DNA from: a virus
Length of the DNA: 23,257 nucleotides
Reading direction: 5' to 3' (one strand)
IMG/VR virus record: IMGVR_UViG_3300042540_000090
Span: 1-23,257 of that record
In this document: positions 2,014 to 21,829 of the stretch, one piece after another
How positions within the stretch are numbered: position 1 is the stretch's first letter
Layout of the letters: each line of letters begins with the position of its first letter
Notes under the pieces: generated by a model
The model's database searches: none
What the model saw: only the letters and a program-made list of their open reading frames with translations
What the model was told of the DNA's origin: nothing
Translations under genes and position numbers: made by a program

Positions 2014-2083
2014 ACCACTCATCATTATATTTTACCGTTCATCACAATTATTGTTTTTAATCAAAACAGTAGACATATATTTG
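2014..2083 (+). promoter_or_regulatory. Promoter A with a LytTR-like direct-repeat operator
   Basis: Direct repeats ACCACTCAT (2014-2022) and ACCGTTCAT (2034-2042) have a 20-bp period. The second fits the published LytTR consensus [TA][AC][CA]GTTN[AG][TG] at every position; the first contains ACCACTCA, the half-site form of E. coli BtsR. After 33 bp comes TATATTTG (2076-2083), an exact match to the Bacteroidota -7 element TAnnTTTG. A -33-like TTG lies at 2051-2053, 22 bp upstream, inside the palindrome ACAATTATTGT (2044-2054). It drives the small-gene module starting at 2105. Confidence 0.7.
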
Positions 2084-2104: not shown

Positions 2105-2305
2105 ATGAAAACAATTAACAGAAACGAATTAAGAAACATGTACTTAGATTTATCAATCGAATTAAGTGATGTAAAAACATTTGAAGAATTTTGCAAGTTT
2201 TTACCAAAAACGCTACCATTTTTAAAAAAGTATAGTGAAGAAATGTTGGTAAATGTTTTAATTGAAGAAGTTGAAAATAAAGAATTTGAATTAACTAACA
2301 AATAA
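2105..2305 (+). CDS. Small phage protein of unknown function
   Basis: This 66-residue acidic, helical protein is not recognised. I chose the ATG at 2105 instead of the upstream in-frame start at 2051, because 2051 lies inside the promoter, upstream of the -7 element at 2076-2083. The A-rich leader before 2105 (AAAAACAAAAGATATG) is nearly the same as that of the gene at 2359. It is the first gene after promoter A, so an early or regulatory role is possible but not shown. A minus-strand reading frame over the same bases is treated as a shadow. Confidence 0.65.
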   Translation: MKTINRNELRNMYLDLSIELSDVKTFEEFCKFLPKTLPFLKKYSEEMLVNVLIEEVENKEFELTNK

Positions 2306-3285: not shown

Positions 3286-3473
3286 CAATAGGACAAAGAG
3301 TGTATTCAAAGCATTACCAGTGCTTGGGTACAGTTGCAAGGATAAAAGATATGAGCGAAGATTATCCAGTTGTAGTTAGTTTTGATAACGGATCGGTTGA
3401 CTATTACACACTAGATGGGAAGATGTATATTGAGTTTGATGTTAAAGATTTGGAAGATGAGAAAAACATTTAA
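3282..3473 (+). CDS. Small beta-rich protein with SH3-like pattern
   Basis: 63 residues with the pattern IGQRVYS....LGTVARI..... YPVVVSFDNGSVDYYTLDGK, that is, a run of short beta strands with a Val/Ile-rich centre as in small SH3-like or KOW/Tudor-type barrels. Similar short proteins occur in Bacteroidota phages. A nucleic-acid or protein-binding role would fit, but this is inferred from strand pattern only. Its start overlaps the previous stop by 4 bases, and its 3' end overlaps the next gene by 17 bases. Confidence 0.7.
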   Translation: MTIGQRVYSKHYQCLGTVARIKDMSEDYPVVVSFDNGSVDYYTLDGKMYIEFDVKDLEDEKNI

Positions 3474-3825
3474 ACAATTAACAGACGCTGAGAAATTACA
3501 AATATCAGTTCAATTCCACCTTCAAACACTTAAACGGATGTCGGATAAATTCAATGTAAGCAATTCAACTATTCGACTAGTAGTTACCAACTTCTTTAAG
3601 GATAAGCGAATAGACGTTACAGGTTTAACGGTTACTCAGATAATGGATAAATACAAGGTGACGATGGGTAAAGCTATTACACTTCAGATGAAGTTTGATA
3701 AACCATTAGGTGGATCGGTTTACTTCGGTCAAACTAAAGAAGCTATCTACTCTAATGAAGATGAGATGATAATACCAAGTTACTCAGTTAAAGATTTACA
3801 AGGGTGGGAGGCTGCGATGATATGA
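3457..3825 (+). CDS. Probable helix-turn-helix DNA-binding protein
   Basis: 122 residues from the ATG at 3457. An in-frame start at 3415 would add 14 residues deep inside the preceding gene and is not preferred. Residues about 8-48 (LTDAEKLQ... LKRMSDKFNVSNSTIRLVV) look like a three-helix HTH in which 'KRMSDKFNVSNSTIRLVV' would be the turn and recognition helix. Residues about 49-75 may hold a second short helical unit (VTQIMDKYKVTMGKAITL). The C-terminal third is beta-like. A regulatory role for the early genes is plausible; its targets are unknown. It is not of LytTR type, so it is not an obvious partner for the ACC(A/G)(C/T)TCAT operators. Confidence 0.6.
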   Translation: MRKTFKQLTDAEKLQISVQFHLQTLKRMSDKFNVSNSTIRLVVTNFFKDKRIDVTGLTVTQIMDKYKVTMGKAITLQMKFDKPLGGSVYFGQTKEAIYSNEDEMIIPSYSVKDLQGWEAAMI

Positions 3826-4049
3826 CCAACGAACAGAAACTCCTAGCAGCTCAACTTCTTCCAGTACTTGCTGACTTCTTAGAAGATGTACCGATGCAAC
3901 ATTTAGCTAAGATGAAACGGAATAGACTAGTAACCGAGATACGTTCATTCGATTCGTTCCTAATGGTAGGTGCTGGCTTAGATGCAATGGATCAACAGAT
4001 AGAGTTACAACAAGCGTTTAGACAATGGATTACCACTCATCACCAATAA
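3822..4049 (+). CDS. Small helical phage protein of unknown function
   Basis: 75 residues from the ATG at 3822, which overlaps the previous stop (ATGA). An upstream GTG at 3804 would add six residues and is less likely. The product is helical and amphipathic (MTNEQKLLAAQLLPVLADFL at the start) with no recognised motif. Its last codons, coding for ITTHHQ, contain the first half-site of the operator of promoter B, so coding sequence and control site share bases here. Confidence 0.65.
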   Translation: MTNEQKLLAAQLLPVLADFLEDVPMQHLAKMKRNRLVTEIRSFDSFLMVGAGLDAMDQQIELQQAFRQWITTHHQ

Positions 4050-4100
4050 CAACCGTTCATCACAATTACGGTAAACAAGTAAACTAATTGTGTAACTTTA
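4032..4100 (+). promoter_or_regulatory. Promoter B with a LytTR-like direct-repeat operator
   Basis: ACCACTCAT (4032-4040) and ACCGTTCAT (4052-4060) repeat at a 20-bp period, identical to promoter A. After 32 bp comes TAACTTTA (4093-4100), seven of eight matches to TAnnTTTG. No -33 TTTG is seen at the right distance, which fits an activator-dependent promoter. Between operator and -7 lies a perfect 8-bp inverted repeat, CACAATTA (4061-4068) and TAATTGTG (4085-4092). The site controls the recombination module at 4117-5587. Confidence 0.62.
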
Positions 4101-4116
4101 CAAAAAACAAAACAAT

Positions 4117-4635
4117 ATGAAAACAAAAGACGTTAGCTATCGAATAGCTTACAAATCAGACCACCTCGGAGTAATTGATCTAGAGGAAATGTTGGAGAAT
4201 GGTCAATCTCTAATCGTAACTGTCAACGAGGTTTGGCACGAACAGGGCGCAGTTGTCGCTGGGAGCAAAGGTAATTTTAACATAGCTTACTTTGCTGAAT
4301 CAATCAAGCCTTTAGTACTTAACGCAACCAATGCCGCAACGATCAGAAGATTGTGCAACGGTGGTGCAAATCTAAACACTTGGAAAATGCCAGTGCAAGT
4401 TGAACTTTACATTGATGCAACAGTTAAGATGAAAGGTCAAATAGTAGGTGGTGTTAGAATTAGAAAGGCTTTAAACGTAGCACCACAAATAGACGCTACA
4501 GCAGCTTTAAATGTATTAAATGGAGCAACATCACTCGATGATTTAAAAGAGCGTTACATGAGCTTATCTAAAGCCGAGCAAGGTTTGAGTGTTGTAGTAG
4601 CTAAAAAGGATGAAATGAAAATTAAATTAAATTAA
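4117..4635 (+). CDS. OB-fold-like phage replication/recombination protein, candidate ssDNA-binding protein
   Basis: The 172-residue protein has the layout of a common phage family in which an N-terminal beta domain ends in a segment of the form KPLVLN-TNA-TI...(W)....V-LY....K..G..V-G-RIR; here residues about 62-125 read KPLVLNATNAATIRRL and then VGGVRIR. A helical tail (SLDDLKERYMSLSKAEQ) follows, as is usual in the family. Members sit beside exonucleases and helicases and are thought to bind ssDNA; that role is inferred from context. It is followed one base after its stop by the YqaJ-type nuclease at 4637, which suggests a partner or annealing role. Membership is fairly clear, the biochemical role less so. 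Confidence 0.65.
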   Translation: MKTKDVSYRIAYKSDHLGVIDLEEMLENGQSLIVTVNEVWHEQGAVVAGSKGNFNIAYFAESIKPLVLNATNAATIRRLCNGGANLNTWKMPVQVELYIDATVKMKGQIVGGVRIRKALNVAPQIDATAALNVLNGATSLDDLKERYMSLSKAEQGLSVVVAKKDEMKIKLN

Positions 4636-4636
4636 G

Positions 4637-5284
4637 ATGATTACAAGAAAAGATATTATACAAGGCACTCCTGAATGGATGGCTGTTCGATGGGCTAAAG
4701 TTGGCGGTACACGATCAAAAGGATTGTTCACTAAAGGTGATACACTTTACCTTGAGATGCTAGCTGAATACACTGAGCAATATGTACACGAAGAATCGTA
4801 CCAATCCGCTGCAATGGAGCGAGGTAACGAGCTTGAACCTGAGGCAATATTTGAAATGATGCAGTATACCGGTGTTAACGTTCAATCAGTTGGCTGGTTA
4901 CAATCTGTTGAGTGTCCTATCTTAGGCATATCACCTGACGCAATTAGTGAAGATGAAACGATATGTTTCGAGGTTAAGTGTCCTAGCGCAAAGAAGCACG
5001 TTGAAAACTGTCTTAGTGCGGATATTCCACTAGATTATGTACATCAATGTGTACACTATTTCACTGTCAATCCTAAACTATCAACTTTGTACTTTGGATC
5101 ATATAGACCTGAGGCTCTAAAACCTTTGAAAGTTTGGTCGATTAATAGAGAAAGTTTGATTAACTTAGGGACAAATGCAAAGCCAGTAATGAAGTCAGTA
5201 CAGGAATGGAGTGAGATTGCGTTAAACGAAGCGCATGAGTTAAATAAACAAATGAATAAAGGAGTTGAATTATTAAGTTTTTAA
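4637..5284 (+). CDS. YqaJ-type viral recombinase / lambda-exonuclease-like nuclease
   Basis: A 215-residue PD-(D/E)XK nuclease. It begins with the typical QGTPEW (residues 9-14), has ERGNELEP near 61-68, the G-x-S-P-D motif with catalytic D101, then F-E112-V-K114-C-P, and a helix with H136-Q137 and H140. These are the active-site landmarks of the YqaJ/lambda exonuclease family, which resects dsDNA ends 5' to 3' for single-strand annealing recombination. It is flanked by two candidate ssDNA-binding proteins (4117 and 5297), a standard phage recombination set, although no clear RecT/Erf-type annealase is seen. Start at 4637 lies one base after the previous stop. Confidence 0.9.
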   Translation: MITRKDIIQGTPEWMAVRWAKVGGTRSKGLFTKGDTLYLEMLAEYTEQYVHEESYQSAAMERGNELEPEAIFEMMQYTGVNVQSVGWLQSVECPILGISPDAISEDETICFEVKCPSAKKHVENCLSADIPLDYVHQCVHYFTVNPKLSTLYFGSYRPEALKPLKVWSINRESLINLGTNAKPVMKSVQEWSEIALNEAHELNKQMNKGVELLSF

Positions 5285-5296
5285 ATTAACGGAGAT

Positions 5297-5587
5297 ATGA
5301 TTAAAGGTAAAGTAGATTTTGTTGGGCCAACTGTCCAAGTATCAGATAAATTCTCAAAGCGAGAATTAGTAGTTGTAACATCGGACCAATATCCACAACA
5401 TATTCTGATTGAGTTTAACCAGGATAAATGTGATTTGTTAAACAATATTCATTTAGGAATGGAAGTTGATGTTGAATATAATTTACGTGGCCGGTCCTGG
5501 ACTAATCCACAAGGTGAAAAAAAATATTTTAACACCATTCAAGGTTGGAAAATTTTAAGTACAACAGAAACAAAAATTGATTTTTGA
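5297..5587 (+). CDS. DUF3127 OB-fold protein, likely ssDNA-binding
   Basis: The 96-residue protein matches the DUF3127 pattern: an initial G-K-V strand, FSKREL.V.T.DQYPQHI in the middle, then a GMEVDVEYNLRGRSW strand pair and a terminal F-N-T-I-Q-G-W-K-I strand. DUF3127 is a small Bacteroidota family with a single OB fold, and it probably works as a single-strand DNA-binding protein. It follows the exonuclease gene after 12 bases and is the last gene before the terminator at 5628. In base use (two GGCC sites within 290 bases) it resembles the replication genes to its right more than the genes to its left. Confidence 0.85.
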   Translation: MIKGKVDFVGPTVQVSDKFSKRELVVVTSDQYPQHILIEFNQDKCDLLNNIHLGMEVDVEYNLRGRSWTNPQGEKKYFNTIQGWKILSTTETKIDF

Positions 5588-5627
5588 AATGAAAATGTAA
5601 AATTTTTAATAAAAACATTCAACTTAG

Positions 5628-5651
5628 AAGCACCTTAACGGGTGCTTTTTT
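5628..5651 (+). terminator. Rho-independent terminator after the recombination module
   Basis: AAGCACC (5628-5634) and GGTGCTT (5641-5647) pair perfectly around TTAACG, and the T run extends to 5651. It lies 41 bases after the stop of the DUF3127 gene and isolates the recombination module from the replication genes. Confidence 0.85.
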
Positions 5652-5658
5652 GTTTTTT

Positions 5659-5709
5659 GCAAAGGTAGAAATAAACTTAACTGCTTGATTTTCAACAATA
5701 GCAAAGGTA
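5659..5709 (-). repeat. Two GCAAAGGTA repeats, -7-like on the minus strand
   Basis: GCAAAGGTA occurs at 5659-5667 and 5701-5709, each followed by a similar AAATAAA...ACTT stretch (period 42). Read on the minus strand each is TACCTTTGC, an exact match to the Bacteroidota -7 element TAnnTTTG. No well-placed -33 TTTG is seen for either, and no minus-strand gene follows, so they may be protein-binding repeats or drive a short antisense RNA. Confidence 0.42.
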
Positions 5710-5806
5710 AAAATAAAAACTTCAAAGTTTAAATAGAAATATTTTATTTTTTTATTTTCTAAAATAATATTTTATCATTCTTATGTATTATTAGATTTTA
5801 TCTTTA

Positions 5807-5889
5807 TATCCTTAGTATCCTTTGCAAACTCAATGATAGAGCGACTTTTAAAAAAAGTTTATCTTTATTTATCCTTTGCTATCCTTTGC
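5807..5889 (+). repeat. Iteron-like TATCCTTTGC repeats
   Basis: TATCCTTTGC occurs at 5816-5825, 5870-5879 and 5880-5889, the last two in perfect tandem, and a partial TATCCTTAG at 5807-5815 makes a second tandem pair. Each pair is preceded by TTTATCTTTAT, so a larger unit of about 30 bases is repeated roughly 60 bases apart. They could bind an initiator or a regulator of the primase operon. Confidence 0.6.
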
Positions 5890-5915
5890 ATTGATTTTTT
5901 TACTATATTCGCATT

Positions 5916-5988
5916 GTGTAGTTTGAGCTTAGCGGCTTGACGTAAGTGGTTCACGTTCCAGCTACACTTCTTTTATTTTACAACGTGA
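5916..5988 (+). promoter_or_regulatory. Foldable leader before the primase-helicase gene
   Basis: GTGTAGTT (5916-5923) pairs with AGCTACAC (5960-5967), eight positions with one G-U, and encloses two possible small hairpins (GAGC/GCTT at 5925-5938 and ACGT/ACGT at 5940-5956). A competing stem is possible: TCACGTT (5951-5957) with AACGTGA (5982-5988), seven perfect pairs. Two exclusive folds just before a start codon suggest an attenuator or translational switch. No known riboswitch class is recognised. Confidence 0.35.
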
Positions 5989-6008
5989 GTAAAAAACGTA
6001 TTAAAATT

Positions 6009-8135
6009 ATGATTAGTTATTGGAGGGGCGTTAAAATCGTCGACAAAGACATTGACAGAACGTCAGTAGATGAATTTTTAGACCGGGTTAAAAACGGTTA
6101 TTGGAAAGAACAAGTAGAGCTTGTTAGGTCCGAAGAAAGTAAAGACCGAAGAAAGGTAATTAAAGAAACTTTACCGGCTGTTACAATTGGAGGTACTTTC
6201 TCAAGAAGAAGTCAAGACAATTTAGAAAATCATTCCGGGTTTATTTGTATTGATGTTGATGATTATACAGATAGATCAAAAATCAATGAAGATGAGTTTA
6301 CTTATGCTTCATTGCTTTCTGTAAGTGGAACTGGGTTTGCTGTGATTTGTAAGGTCGATTCATTAAAACATAAGGAATCTTATAACTTTTTATCTGAACA
6401 TTACTTTAAAACTTACGGAATAGTAGTTGATGAAGCACCTAAAAATGTTGCATCGGCCCGTTTTGTATCTTATGATCCTGATTTATTTCTAAATAAGAAG
6501 GCCAAGAAGTCAAAATCTAAACTTGAAAAGAAGAAACAAGCTCCGAACTTATCTATTTTAGTTCCTAAAAGTGATGTTGGTGACTTGGTTAACCAGGTGA
6601 ATAAGTCAGTAGTTGATGAATATGGTGATTATTTAGCCCTATCATTTGCTATTGCGAGTGGATTTGGTGAAGGTGGCCGAGAATATTTCTACAAGATATG
6701 TTCGTTTTCTGAAAAGTTTAATTTTGAATCAGCTAAAAAGCAATTTGATATTGCATTGAAACGCTCAGGTTCAGGCATAACAGTAGGAACATTCTATTAT
6801 TTTCTTAAACAAGGCGGTGCAGACTTATCAAGTTATGCAGCAGACAAAGCTATTTCCAATGTGAAACTAGCTAAGCGAATGAATACACCTAAAATAGAGA
6901 TTGTAAAAGAACTAGCTAAAGAAAAGAACATTGATGTTGAACAGGCCTTAGAGATAGTTGACGAGGTTTATGGCCGTAGAGATTTGGATATTAGGAATGA
7001 GGGCGGTGCAGAAAATATGATTATTAATGTTTCTAATTACATACTAAAGAAGTATAAAATTAGAAAGAACATCATTACTCGTAAATATGAATGGGATGGA
7101 GTTCCAATGTACGATAAAGAATTTAATACTGTATTCTTAGATTGTCGGATGATATTTGACGATAAGGCCATAACTTTTGACATTGTAAATAGAATCATTC
7201 AGTCAGTTGCCATTCCTGAGTACAATCCATTTTTTGAATATATTGAATCTAATAAATTTAGAACGTCAAGCGGTAACATAGAAAAGCTATGTAGAACCAT
7301 TGAAAGTGAAACATCTATTAAGGACCGTTTTATTAGAAAGTGGATGCTTAGTTTAATTGCATGTATGTATGGTTATCCTATTAGGTCCGTTCTTGCTTTA
7401 ACTGGTGGTCAAAATACGGGTAAAACGGAATGGTTTAGAAGATTACTTCCAAGTGCTTTACAACCTTATTACGCTGAATCAAATTTAGATCGTGGTAAAG
7501 ATGATGAACTTTTGATGTGTGAAAAGTTAATTGTCATGGATGATGAGATGGGAGGTAAGTCAAAGAATGACGAAAAGAAATTTAAGGAATTGACATCTAA
7601 AAACTACTTTTCGCTTCGGGCCGCTTACGGTAGATATAATGAAGATTATAAAAGATTGGCTCTACTATGTGGAACATCGAATGACCATCAGTTGATTAAT
7701 GATAGCACCGGTAATACAAGAATTTTACCGGTTGAAGTTAAGACTATTCACCATGACTTGTATAATTCTATTGATAAGGATGAGTTGTTTATGGAATTAC
7801 ATAGGGCCTACTCTAATGGTGAAATATATCAACTTGAACCAACTGAATTAGAAATATTAAATGAAGTTGGCCGACAATTTGAAAGCATACCTTTTGAACG
7901 TGAATTGATTTTAAAATTCTTTTCGTTTCCAAATACTAGAGGTGAGTGGTTAACAGCTACGGAAATAAAGGATTTAATAGAAAGTCATTCTAAGCAACGT
8001 ATAATGTCAATGAAAAAACTAGGCAGTGAGCTTCGTGTAACATTTGGCGCACCTAGATTTAAAGAAAGACAAAGTAAATATTTTGTAGAAAGAAAATCTG
8101 AACTTGTAGAAACTGTCAATCCTTTTCACATATGA
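6009..8135 (+). CDS. VirE_N/VirE-type primase-helicase
   Basis: 708 residues from the ATG at 6009; an in-frame GTG at 5946 is rejected because it lies in the structured leader and the family normally begins near MISYW. The N-terminal BT4734-like (VirE_N) domain, about 1-165, has IDVDD (D82, D84, D85), SGTG (106-109) and RFVSYDPD (151-158), which I read as the primase-polymerase-like part. The C-terminal VirE domain (from about 400) has Walker A GGQNTGKT (466-473), Walker B LIVMDDE (507-513) and later ATPase motifs with NDSTGNTR, as in SF3-like AAA+ helicases. It probably primes and unwinds phage DNA. The stop overlaps the helicase start (ATGA). Confidence 0.88.
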   Translation: MISYWRGVKIVDKDIDRTSVDEFLDRVKNGYWKEQVELVRSEESKDRRKVIKETLPAVTIGGTFSRRSQDNLENHSGFICIDVDDYTDRSKINEDEFTYASLLSVSGTGFAVICKVDSLKHKESYNFLSEHYFKTYGIVVDEAPKNVASARFVSYDPDLFLNKKAKKSKSKLEKKKQAPNLSILVPKSDVGDLVNQVNKSVVDEYGDYLALSFAIASGFGEGGREYFYKICSFSEKFNFESAKKQFDIALKRSGSGITVGTFYYFLKQGGADLSSYAADKAISNVKLAKRMNTPKIEIVKELAKEKNIDVEQALEIVDEVYGRRDLDIRNEGGAENMIINVSNYILKKYKIRKNIITRKYEWDGVPMYDKEFNTVFLDCRMIFDDKAITFDIVNRIIQSVAIPEYNPFFEYIESNKFRTSSGNIEKLCRTIESETSIKDRFIRKWMLSLIACMYGYPIRSVLALTGGQNTGKTEWFRRLLPSALQPYYAESNLDRGKDDELLMCEKLIVMDDEMGGKSKNDEKKFKELTSKNYFSLRAAYGRYNEDYKRLALLCGTSNDHQLINDSTGNTRILPVEVKTIHHDLYNSIDKDELFMELHRAYSNGEIYQLEPTELEILNEVGRQFESIPFERELILKFFSFPNTRGEWLTATEIKDLIESHSKQRIMSMKKLGSELRVTFGAPRFKERQSKYFVERKSELVETVNPFHI

Positions 8136-9556
8136 TAGAGTTATACGATTATCAGAATGAATATGTAAACAGTATTCGTAATTCATTTATAGAGGGTAAG
8201 AAAAGAGTTGTATTATGTTCGGCTACTGGTAGCGGTAAAACTGTAATGTTTAGTTTTATAACTAAGCAAACGATTGAACGAGGTAAACGAATCTTAATAT
8301 TAACAGATAGAAAGGAATTATTTTCACAGTCAAGTGGCTCTTTAATCAGAATGGACCTACACCCTTCAGAAATAAAACCAAACACAAAAGTAGATTTTAG
8401 CAAGAATCTTTATGTTGCAATGGTTCAAACATTTATGCGTAGAATCAGTAAACCGGAATACCAGGACCTACTACATTCAATTGATTTGATTATTATTGAT
8501 GAGGCCCATAAAGCTATATTTGATCCATTGTTTAGATTTGTTTCGGATAAGACTTTTGTTATAGGAGCAACAGCTACACCACATAGAGAGGGCAAACAAG
8601 AATCACTTGAGAAATTCTATGATGATATTATTCAAGTGATTGATACACCTGATTTAATATTGAAAGGTAAGTTATCACATTGTACATCTTATGGTGTCAA
8701 AGTGGACCTATCCGGAATAAAAACTAAAGGCGGTGATTATGATGAGAAATCTATGGCCGACAAATTTAGTGAAATAAAATTATTTCATGGTGTTTATGAA
8801 AATTACAATCGAATATGTAACGGTAAAAAAGCTATTGTGTTTGCTCCAAATGTAGATAGCAGTCGAGAATTAGTTAATGATTGGTCCGATAAAGGATTAC
8901 AAGTTAAGCATGTTGATTGTTACATGAGTGACCTGGAAAGAAAATCTATTATTGAATGGTTTACTAAAACGGATGGTGCTATAATTTCAAATTATGGAAT
9001 ACTTACAACAGGGTTTGATGTTCCAAATATTGAAGTAGTAATACTTTATAGGGCCACGAAGTCACTGCCATTATTTTTACAAATGGCCGGGCGTGGTTCA
9101 AGAATATCAGATGGTAAAAACGGATTTACTATTCTTGACTTTGGTAATAACATAAAGCGTCATAACTATTGGGAAGAACCTAGACTATGGACCTTAAAAA
9201 AGAAAGAAAAAAAGCAAGGTGAAGCACCTATAAAAGAATGTCCTAAATGTGCCTATCTTCTTTATGCTTCTATAATGGAATGTCCGGAGTGTGGCCATCA
9301 GTTTGAGAAATCTGAAAAGGAAAAAGAAGAACAAGTAATGGCTGAATTAGTCCTAATGAGTGGAAGTGATATTAAAAAACTTGCTGATAAGTCAAGCATA
9401 AAAGAATTGATATTAATACAACAATCGAAAGGATATGCTAAAAGTTGGATATACTATTACTTAAAAAGTAAAGAAGATTATATTGAATACGGTAAACTAA
9501 TGAAGTATCATTATAAATGGGCTATTAATCAAATTAAATTTAGAAATATATGTTAA
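8132..9556 (+). CDS. Superfamily 2 DEAH helicase with C-terminal zinc ribbon
   Basis: 474 residues with all main SF2 motifs: Walker A SATGSGKT (30-37), DEAH (123-126), TATP (147-150), the TTGFDVP segment of RecA domain 2 and the motif VI region MAGRGSR (318-324). After the helicase core comes a lysine-rich linker and a four-cysteine zinc ribbon (C370, C373, C384, C387), then a helical tail. It resembles the UvsW/RecQ-like small helicases of phage replication modules. It may remodel forks or recombination intermediates with the primase-helicase before it. It starts in the previous stop (ATGA) and overlaps the next gene by 7 bases. Confidence 0.92.
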   Translation: MIELYDYQNEYVNSIRNSFIEGKKRVVLCSATGSGKTVMFSFITKQTIERGKRILILTDRKELFSQSSGSLIRMDLHPSEIKPNTKVDFSKNLYVAMVQTFMRRISKPEYQDLLHSIDLIIIDEAHKAIFDPLFRFVSDKTFVIGATATPHREGKQESLEKFYDDIIQVIDTPDLILKGKLSHCTSYGVKVDLSGIKTKGGDYDEKSMADKFSEIKLFHGVYENYNRICNGKKAIVFAPNVDSSRELVNDWSDKGLQVKHVDCYMSDLERKSIIEWFTKTDGAIISNYGILTTGFDVPNIEVVILYRATKSLPLFLQMAGRGSRISDGKNGFTILDFGNNIKRHNYWEEPRLWTLKKKEKKQGEAPIKECPKCAYLLYASIMECPECGHQFEKSEKEKEEQVMAELVLMSGSDIKKLADKSSIKELILIQQSKGYAKSWIYYYLKSKEDYIEYGKLMKYHYKWAINQIKFRNIC

Positions 9557-9891
9557 CTGAATCAGCAATACAACAAGAATGCGTTATGTACTTTCGGAAC
9601 AAATTTGGATTGAAACATCACATTCCAAGACTTTTAATGTTTAGCGTTCCAAATGAAGGTAAGAATATGATTGAACAGTCAAGAAAAAAAGCAATCGGAT
9701 TAATGTCAGGTGTATCAGATACGATAATCGATACCGGTAAAGATATTATTTACTGCGAGTTTAAAGATGCTAAAGGAGTTCAGTCACCAAAACAAAAGGA
9801 GTTCCAGGAACATGTAGAATCGTTAGGTAGGAAGTATTGGGTAATTAGATCATTGGAAGAGTTTAAAAATCACCTCACCACCAATCATTAA
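9550..9891 (+). CDS. VRR-NUC domain nuclease
   Basis: A 113-residue stand-alone VRR-NUC (PD-(D/E)XK) protein: E4 in the first helix (SAIQQECVMYF), PNEG (34-37), GLMSGVSD with D57, the E70-F-K72 core, and SPKQKEF (79-85). In the family these residues make the metal site of a structure-specific or nicking nuclease, usually found beside SF2 helicases in phages, as here. It may process forks or recombination junctions. Its last codons (HLTTNH) overlap the first half-site of promoter C. Unlike the two genes before it, it contains no GGCC. Confidence 0.92.
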   Translation: MLTESAIQQECVMYFRNKFGLKHHIPRLLMFSVPNEGKNMIEQSRKKAIGLMSGVSDTIIDTGKDIIYCEFKDAKGVQSPKQKEFQEHVESLGRKYWVIRSLEEFKNHLTTNH

Positions 9892-9946
9892 TTTTAACCA
9901 CTCATCACATAACTGATTAACTTATAGAATAATATACATATATTTG
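9877..9946 (+). promoter_or_regulatory. Promoter C with a LytTR-like direct-repeat operator
   Basis: ACCACCAAT (9877-9885) and ACCACTCAT (9897-9905) lie 20 bp apart as at promoters A and B; the first half-site is degenerate (7 of 9 to ACCACTCAT). After 33 bp comes TATATTTG (9939-9946), an exact TAnnTTTG, and 29 bases later the ATG at 9976. No -33 TTTG is visible at the usual distance. The first half-site lies in the end of the VRR-NUC coding sequence. No strong terminator was seen between here and the window end, so this promoter may feed the terminase and structural genes too. Confidence 0.6.
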
Positions 9947-9975: not shown

Positions 9976-10173
9976 ATGGCTGACATAACAAAATGCAAAG
10001 GGGAGGGCTGCCCGATTAAAGAAAGCTGTTACCGATTCACAGCTCAGGCAAGTGAGAGACAAAGCTACTTCTTAACGCCACCATTCGATGGCAAGACTTG
10101 TGAGATGTACTGGGGTAAGCATTCGGAATCTATTTACAATCAACTAAAGGATATAACAGATGAAAGCAAGTGA
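9976..10173 (+). CDS. Small cysteine-containing phage protein
   Basis: 65 residues from the ATG at 9976. An in-frame TTG at 9949 is rejected because it lies only two bases after the -7 element, before the likely transcript start. Four cysteines occur as CKGEGCPIKESC plus a later C near 45 (KTCEMYW), with YRFTA and RQSYF around them, a layout familiar from short Bacteroidota phage proteins and able to bind a metal. First gene after promoter C. Its function is unknown. Confidence 0.7.
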   Translation: MADITKCKGEGCPIKESCYRFTAQASERQSYFLTPPFDGKTCEMYWGKHSESIYNQLKDITDESK

Positions 10174-11006: not shown

Positions 11007-11188
11007 CAGCAGAACTTAGAGCGCAAGAAATGGTTAACGATCATGGATTAGTTGAAGCCATGATTAAGTGTAAGAAGATTTTAGCGGTAGTCCATGAGAA
11101 TGTAGAGTTAGATCCAACAGAAGCAAATTCAAATCTTTTAAATTATTGGACTGATGTTATGAATTTTTTACTTACATTAGTTGCGTGA
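11003..11188 (+). CDS. Small helical phage protein, related to the one at 2523
   Basis: 61 residues. MTAELRAQEMV at the start, an acidic helical middle with AMIKCKKILAVVHEN, and a C-terminal NYWTDVMNF. These are the same landmarks as in the 68-residue product of 2523-2729 (MTAKQKANELV ... EYWQDV). The two genes lie in different modules, but each stands behind a LytTR-like promoter. Its function is unknown. Its stop overlaps the GTG start of the next gene (GTGA at 11185-11188). Confidence 0.7.
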   Translation: MTAELRAQEMVNDHGLVEAMIKCKKILAVVHENVELDPTEANSNLLNYWTDVMNFLLTLVA

Positions 11189-11703
11189 ATAAAGAAGAGA
11201 TTGACCTATATTTTCAAACGAACTGGAATGAAATCCAATCCGTAGTTAAAGTCAACTCTTCTAAATGTGCAACTATAAATGTGTCAGACATCACAACCGA
11301 AATATATTTAACGTGCATAAACAGAGCCGCTAAGATTCCAAATGAAAGGAGTTTAGGCGGCTTTATTCGTATGGTATCGTCTAACACTTACAAGTGGAAT
11401 AATTCAGAATTTAATATAAATAATAAGATTCTCGCAAACGAATTGCTAAATGATAACATATATATGGAGGATGATGAAGTTGTAGATAACCATTACCAAA
11501 ATAGGTTATACGCCATTGAGATGTATCGTTTGAATGCAGAGCCGCATGAACTTAGATTCTTGGATATTTATCTAGTCAAGAAGATAACAACTGTTCGAGG
11601 ATTGGTTAAGCATTTAAACATAAGTCATCATGGAGCTTATACAATAATTAAGGATTTTAAACGTAAATTGAAAGAATATGAAAGGCAAGCAGAAATTGAT
11701 TAA
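11185..11703 (+). CDS. Sigma-factor-like / HTH protein, possible late-gene regulator
   Basis: 172 residues from a GTG at 11185, the only start that gives the usual 4-base overlap. The middle (about 35-70: SDITTEIYLTCINRA ... LGGFIRMVSSNTYKW) resembles sigma region 2 helices, and the C-terminal part (about 118-165: EPHELRFLDIYLVKK, then TVRGLVKHLNISHHGAYTII) has a region-4-type helix-turn-helix. This layout is typical of small sigma-70-like phage proteins. Its place just before the terminase and structural genes suggests control of packaging or late genes, but binding to RNA polymerase is not shown. It overlaps the next gene by 26 bases. Confidence 0.58.
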   Translation: MNKEEIDLYFQTNWNEIQSVVKVNSSKCATINVSDITTEIYLTCINRAAKIPNERSLGGFIRMVSSNTYKWNNSEFNINNKILANELLNDNIYMEDDEVVDNHYQNRLYAIEMYRLNAEPHELRFLDIYLVKKITTVRGLVKHLNISHHGAYTIIKDFKRKLKEYERQAEID

Positions 11704-21135: not shown

Positions 21136-21829
21136 AGAAATAAACTCCGAAACATTAGAGGGTGTATTTGATAAGATGATACACCTTGTTTCGGTTGTTG
21201 ATGATTTAGATCCGTTAGACGTTCAAGAATGGAGGGTTAATAAATTAGTTAATGCCTATTCAATAGCACAAACAAAAGTAAAAATATCAGATAGGCATTC
21301 AGAGAATATAACCATTGATAACGTCACTTTAAAGTTACAATCGTTCAGCACATTAACGCTTAGACAATTTATTAATTTAGAAGATTACGTTTCAAAAGGA
21401 TTTACACAAAATATTTCACAAATAGCTGCGACTATTTACCTTGCTGAAAGTGGTGGCGGTATGTACGATGTAGTTACGGAGGACTATAAGAATGTAAATG
21501 TAGATTATCGAAGTCAGTTAATTGATGAATTACCAATCAATCAAATTTTAGGAGCTTGTAAAAAGTACAATAAATTCAGAGAAACTTTTTTTAATTCCTA
21601 TGAATTATTTAGCGATCCATATGCAGATGTTAAAGTTGAAGAACTTAACGAAGAGGAGAAAGCTGAATTTGAATTAGAAATGAAAACAAGGGCAAAGCAA
21701 GGAGATAACCAGTGGATGGTTGTTTTAAATATGCTTGCTGATTTCGATATTACAAAATTCAACGATGTGCTAGACCAAAATTTATACCTAGCATTTAATC
21801 AATTATCTTACATAAAATCTAACAAATAA
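21113..21829 (+). CDS. Tail assembly chaperone-like protein, second of a pair
   Basis: 238 residues from the ATG at 21113, 23 bases inside the preceding gene and in the +1 frame relative to it. A TTG at 21068 would give a longer form but overlaps by 68 bases and adds residues that look like noise. The first 150 residues follow the layout of the preceding product. The acidic C-terminal part (VEELNEEEKAEFELEMKTRA and then a helix NQWMVVLNMLADFD) is extra. No slippery sequence was found in the overlap, so independent initiation is preferred over frameshifting. Confidence 0.5.
   Translation: MLLTRQYKEINSETLEGVFDKMIHLVSVVDDLDPLDVQEWRVNKLVNAYSIAQTKVKISDRHSENITIDNVTLKLQSFSTLTLRQFINLEDYVSKGFTQNISQIAATIYLAESGGGMYDVVTEDYKNVNVDYRSQLIDELPINQILGACKKYNKFRETFFNSYELFSDPYADVKVEELNEEEKAEFELEMKTRAKQGDNQWMVVLNMLADFDITKFNDVLDQNLYLAFNQLSYIKSNK

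Follow-up and report, generated by a model that had tools for sequence, protein, structure and literature searches.

Why does the same pair of short direct repeats stand at the start of three gene modules in the window, by which we mean the whole 23,257-nucleotide stretch of viral DNA analysed here, and which protein would read it? As listed in Table 1, three pairs of half-sites of an ACC[AG][CT]TCATCA-like form occur in the window, all on the plus strand and with a period of 20 bp, each ahead of a TAnnTTTG-type -7 element of the kind recognised by Bacteroidota sigma-A. The initial annotation had described three such blocks at near-equal spacing to the promoter and none before the primase operon, and both observations were borne out, the spacings being 33, 32, and 33 bp and the intergenic region ahead of the primase operon (about 5590-6010) containing no operator copy. 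Its picture of one block repeated with an exact TAnnTTTG element was right as to the number of copies but not as to their exactness: operators A and B are perfect, operator C has two mismatches in ACCNNTCATC of its distal half-site, and the -7 element, exact at A and C, carries one mismatch at B, where the last base is A. By eye, the primase operon is provided with a promoter-like TTTG-N-TATATTCG sequence of its own at 5879-5920, without an operator, and terminator-like hairpins with T runs lie at about 1903-1930, before operator A, and at 5630-5656, after module B. Two further proteins were assigned by eye, namely a 151-residue M15 peptidase endolysin-like protein (1399-1854), an M15 match being present also in the protein set of the relative G033, and a sigma-like protein of 172 residues ahead of the terminase genes (11185-11703), which gave no Pfam or PHROG match.

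Table 1. Half-sites, -7 elements, and modules in the window.
Feature	Position	Strand	Remark
Operator A, distal half-site ACCACTCAT(CA)	2014..2022	+	Same site in complete relative G033 (at 9021) and in G040
Operator A, proximal half-site ACCGTTCAT(CA)	2034..2042	+	20 bp past distal half-site
Promoter A, -7 element TATATTTG	2076..2083	+	33 bp past proximal half-site
Module A, first ORF	2105..2305	+	Module of small genes without assigned function, to about 4049
Operator B, distal half-site ACCACTCAT(CA)	4032..4040	+	Overlaps end of ORF 3804-4049
Operator B, proximal half-site ACCGTTCAT(CA)	4052..4060	+	
Promoter B, -7-like element TAACTTTA	4093..4100	+	32 bp past proximal half-site
Module B	4117..5587	+	
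Module B, phrog_21613 protein	4117-4635	+	
Module B, YqaJ/RecE-like exonuclease	4637-5284	+	
Module B, DUF3127 single-strand DNA-binding protein	5297-5587	+	
Operator C, degenerate distal half-site ACCACCAAT(CA)	9877..9885	+	Overlaps end of ORF 9550-9891
Operator C, proximal half-site ACCACTCAT(CA)	9897..9905	+	
Promoter C, -7 element TATATTTG	9939..9946	+	33 bp past proximal half-site
Module C, first ORF	9976..10173	+	One-direction module on to terminase and structural genes

The LytTR half-site consensus, as supplied by the initial annotation, is [TA][AC][CA]GTTN[AG][TG]; ACCGTTCAT agrees with it at every position (by eye), and ACCACTCAT deviates at both purine/pyrimidine positions. The direct repeats that had been likened to LytTR sites are present, but with a period of 20 bp rather than the approximately 21 bp cited for such sites; 21 bp is also the period reported for the BtsR/YehT operator. 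With 9-bp direct half-sites and 11 bp between them, the layout is that of a LytTR operator as defined in the literature, namely, a pair of direct repeats of about 9 bp lying 10–13 bp apart (PMC11347149). That the pairs are chance repeats, or an origin iteron or packaging signal, has next to no probability, because the pair, when up to two mismatches were allowed, matched 3 times in the window versus 0 times in 60 first-order Markov resamplings, the strict pattern ACCRYTCATC-N10-ACCRYTCATC occurred in at least 120 IMG/VR stretches versus 3 for the reversed pattern, and the pairs keep a fixed distance and direction to promoters.

When the gap between the half-sites was left free (4 to 34 bases), it was 10 nearly throughout, with a few of 11, among the matches listed. 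Each of 30 phage records, of 12-76 kb, held 1 to 8 matches to a relaxed pattern, and none matched the reversed control; as these records were picked for holding the motif, such counts say nothing of its frequency among phages. Across 22 of the records, the sites were mostly intergenic, most of these facing the next gene on the same strand, and few lay inside ORFs under a longest-ORF rule. The stretches L015, L037, L049, L055, L057 (single repeated sequence, no promoter-like element), L122, and L048 look by eye like possible coding or chance matches and were kept in the counts. Among cultured phages, a short-query search of 50,697 phage records gave no convincing motif match. In L120 and G017 (near 21417-21466), from a phage of 76 kb and 50% G+C, three or four tandem half-sites precede a TTGACA-type promoter, indicating that the element occurs also in phages outside the Bacteroidota promoter type.

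The distance between the proximal ACCNNTCAT and the start of TAnnTTTG was then compared over 98 distinct phage sites (54 after removal of similar sequences), and was found to be 32-33 bp in 28, 42 bp in 5, and 52-54 bp in 37, with further values of 65 bp (1 site), 25 bp (2), and 37 bp (1). Steps of about one or two helical turns such as these would be predicted for a bound protein that has to face RNA polymerase. Moreover, promoters of the 33-bp class mostly lack a -33 TTG (4 TTG matches 21-25 bp before the -7 element among 22 promoters of the 54-site set), whereas 13 such matches were found among 14 promoters of the 53-bp class, which suggests that the closer sites stand in for a missing -33 element. 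A pair at 33 bp has its centre at about -60, upstream of the -35/-33 region, the exact centre assuming that the T of the -7 consensus TANNTTTG is at -12 (PMC6847099). This geometry bears on the sign of the predicted regulation. A host LytTR regulator might also act as a repressor, holding the modules until a signal releases it, as the LytTR protein CoxC represses (PMC11347149) and as CtrA has been proposed to defer lysis in Alphaproteobacteria phages (PMC9437464). We consider such repression improbable, because repressor sites usually overlap the promoter, whereas the present sites lie upstream of -33, are helix-phased at three distances, and in the 33-bp class serve promoters without a -33 element.

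The strict pattern was also found in bacteria, in 60 stretches among 84,980 bacterial and archaeal genomes. In 29 of these stretches, of up to 8 kb each, an iterated HMM grown from one LytTR protein detected a LytTR response-regulator gene, whereas about 1.6 LytTR-bearing loci are predicted from gene density (240 genes per about 70 Mb, by PF04397 in 12 of these genomes), corresponding to an about 18-fold link. The 60 loci include close relatives, the non-redundant LytTR-linked set being 20, and the other 31 have no LytTR gene in the stretch, some being chance or coding matches. As the in-house HMM had been trained on these same loci, which affects its E-values, a sample of them, and no more, was checked against Pfam; this confirmed response-regulator and LytTR domains, alpha/beta hydrolases, and LytS-type kinases (PF06580), the type to which the kinases beside the motif belong. 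Several of the 12 searched genomes are rich in LytTR genes, with up to 39 in one genome. The TAnnnT hexamer starts exactly 33 bp away in 10 of the 20 non-redundant LytTR-linked sites and 34 bp away in 3, other distances being far fewer, so that sites spanning several phyla have the -10/-7 element at the same 33 bp as in the phages. The LytTR gene mostly shares its operon with a LytS-type kinase gene, and typically, as seen in Saprospiraceae, Duganella, and an unplaced MAG, a hydrolase-kinase-regulator operon starts at the site. Thus, the LytTR-type reading of the phage tags, proposed earlier from the half-sites, is strongly supported by these comparisons, since the same double motif adjoins LytTR genes in 29 of the 60 bacterial loci and at the same 33-bp distance.

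Two other bacterial settings were seen. In Pseudoalteromonas (L134, L149, L154, L171, L173, and L177), the double site is flanked by an AlgR-like kinase-regulator pair on one side and a type IV pilin operon on the other, and in Flectobacillus and other Cytophagales-like genomes (L159, L164, L174, and L175), a conserved double site precedes a gene for a 77-residue protein without assigned function, the stretches containing no LytTR gene. By eye, none of the 60 bacterial stretches showed a prophage with the pair.

Among Bacteroidota, the probable host phylum of this phage, a slightly looser pair considered without a promoter was found in 3 of 395 genomes, two of these matches being probably due to chance, and a near-strict pair in 4 of 150 Saprospiraceae. 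Such scarcity of near-perfect pairs in the Bacteroidota sampled counts against the reading of a host regulator. When two mismatches were allowed and TAnnTTTG was required at 33 bp, 18 places in Bacteroidota matched versus 2 for the reversed control; the relaxed sites precede a hydrolase gene in at least L283 and L284 and LytS-type kinase-like genes (by eye) in L289 and L292, and some others are clearly coding. The excess over the control, together with the sites before hydrolase or kinase genes, indicates that the architecture exists in Bacteroidota.

Which genome encodes the predicted regulator was addressed by searching the phages themselves. A PF04397 search of 40 motif-bearing phage records detected no LytTR domain, and an HMM built from the LytTR proteins adjoining the motif, applied without filters to six-frame ORFs of 30 records (966 kb in total), gave nothing convincing. 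Seven of the 30 (G008, G009, G015, G017, G022, G033, and G035) carry exact terminal repeats of 50-127 bp and appear complete. The window is a 23 kb fragment; its nearest complete relative, G033, is one of these seven, holds all three operators, and gave no LytTR. Protein matches in G033 are to portal, terminase-region, protease, endolysin, exonuclease, SSB, and primase families, besides two weak ones to HTH families (UPF0122 and HTH_8; E about 0.001), and neither LytTR nor integrase is among the Pfam families listed (all but one gene scanned); the PHROG matches listed for G033 are 25 of 54 families. In the six-frame search, the best LytTR match (E 0.086) lies in a protein that is prohead protease-like by eye; weak LytTR matches in G036, G025, and G031 were set aside after inspection.

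Small phage proteins evolve fast and many have no family match, which would allow for a phage LytTR protein diverged past detection; we judge this very improbable, as neither PF04397 nor the unfiltered motif-linked HMM, a sequence-based search of six-frame ORFs from 30 records, found one. An activator of another kind, encoded by the phage, for example by the small HTH- or sigma-like genes near 3457-3825 or 11185-11703, might instead bind the repeats and time the modules. Multi-copy sites at module starts would suit such a middle or late activator, and candidates can be named in the weak HTH matches of G033 and in an apparently sigma-like protein family (by eye) common to 11 of 22 motif phages. 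When the gene families of these 22 records were clustered, however, no non-structural family was present in all of them; terminase was the most widely shared (19 of 22), only structural or terminase families exceeded 11, and the sigma-like family was absent from 11. Furthermore, the half-site, the period, and the 33-bp spacing are shared with bacterial LytTR operons of several phyla, which a private phage regulator would not explain, and we therefore regard this alternative as unlikely. Since the phages searched, seven of them apparently complete, yielded no LytTR, the most likely reading is a regulator encoded by the host and, with the promoter geometry described above, one that activates. 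Of the two origins that the initial annotation had left side by side, host or phage, the searches of 40 records and of 30 in six frames thus favour the former and speak against the latter.

The operators are retained in related phages. Over 189 bases, copy A shares 96% identity with its counterpart in G033; for copy B, the identity is 96-100% over about 160 bases in four relatives. At copy C, the flanks are nearly unchanged between the window and G033, and the half-sites ACCACCAATC and ACCACTCATC are replaced by ACCGCCCATC and ACCGTTCGTC; the distal orthologue reads ACCGCCCATC in G033 and ACCGCACATC in G040, and the proximal one in G033, ACCGTTCGTC, contains the AlgR core (PMC4064291). The orthologous half-sites drift at tolerated positions only. 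In five relatives (L082, L241, L098, L096, and L013), homology restarts within two bases of operator B (4030-4032), with other genes upstream, as if the operator and its module travelled together or the operator marked the end of an exchangeable module.

Collectively, we think it rather probable that the three blocks are operators for a host LytTR-domain response regulator of the AlgR/BtsR/AgrA type, tying the modules to a host signal. In the mechanism that we propose, a host kinase would phosphorylate the LytTR response regulator, whose dimer would bind the two direct half-sites near -60 and would recruit host RNA polymerase to promoters having a -7 but a poor -33 element. Modules A (small genes), B (recombination and SSB), and C (toward terminase and structural genes) would then follow the host two-component signal, their joint switching being suggested by the shared operators, and the untagged primase operon would stand outside such control. 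As the motif phages carry a LytTR landing tag with no detectable LytTR gene, dozens of them probably let a host sensor system switch on their genes. On the wider view that in many lytic Bacteroidota phages and, separately, in some phages with other promoter types, core lytic modules have come to start under the control of a host LytTR two-component system, infection thereby following a condition sensed by the host, we lean slightly in favour; this would be a widespread and undescribed strategy.

To our knowledge, CtrA and PhoB are the only host response regulators known to control phages, in phages of Alphaproteobacteria and cyanobacteria, respectively. The present operators would add a third family of regulators, acting on core modules instead of auxiliary genes, in many phages of a phylum whose phages have received little study, and in a form that is testable with short promoter fragments. 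They also provide an inexpensive signature by which metagenomes can be screened for phages of this kind, and they predict the operator of LytTR systems in Saprospiraceae, Oxalobacteraceae, and other groups. We found no paper on LytTR operators in phage promoters in the open-access literature searched, whereas the control of phage genes by host response regulators is already established for CtrA (PMC9437464) and PhoB (PMC10976474). The CtrA sites of Alphaproteobacteria phages, interpreted as serving 'lytic deferment' (Mascolo et al. 2022, PMC9437464), are likewise host two-component operators in promoters of lytic-phage genes that evolved in several phage lineages. CtrA, however, lies outside the LytTR family and controls the cell cycle; its binding and regulation have been shown, whereas here both are predicted. 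The tags found here, in turn, stand one to a module, at a constant distance from the promoter, in phages of the Bacteroidota type. The Pho boxes of cyanophages (Zeng and Chisholm 2012, as cited in PMC10976474; phage S-PM2d in PMC10976474) are similar in that the PhoBR two-component system of the host reads phage promoters, and differ in the regulator family, in the nutrient signal, and in serving a specific gene set including auxiliary metabolic genes, in contrast to the core module starts found here.

Outside phages, the BtsR/YehT operator of Enterobacteria (PMC5552118) resembles the present one as the conserved paired site of a LytS/LytTR system, although the BtsR half-site form ACC(G/A)CT(C/T)A given in the initial annotation was not found in the searched text of that paper. 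In Pseudomonas, the AlgR box has the core CCGTTCGTC (PMC4064291), from which the half-site CCGTTCATC differs by one base, and the location of the Pseudoalteromonas site between an AlgR-like regulator and a pilin operon recalls the regulation of fimU-pilE by AlgR; the AlgR sites described in that review are, however, single and at varied distances, unlike the pair found here, with its 20-bp period and its constant distance of 33 bp. The AgrA pair at agr P2/P3 consists of two direct repeats centred at -60 (PMC4227749), as near -60 here, and is bound by a LytTR dimer that activates poorly spaced promoters, although AgrA is a Gram-positive quorum-sensing regulator acting outside phages.
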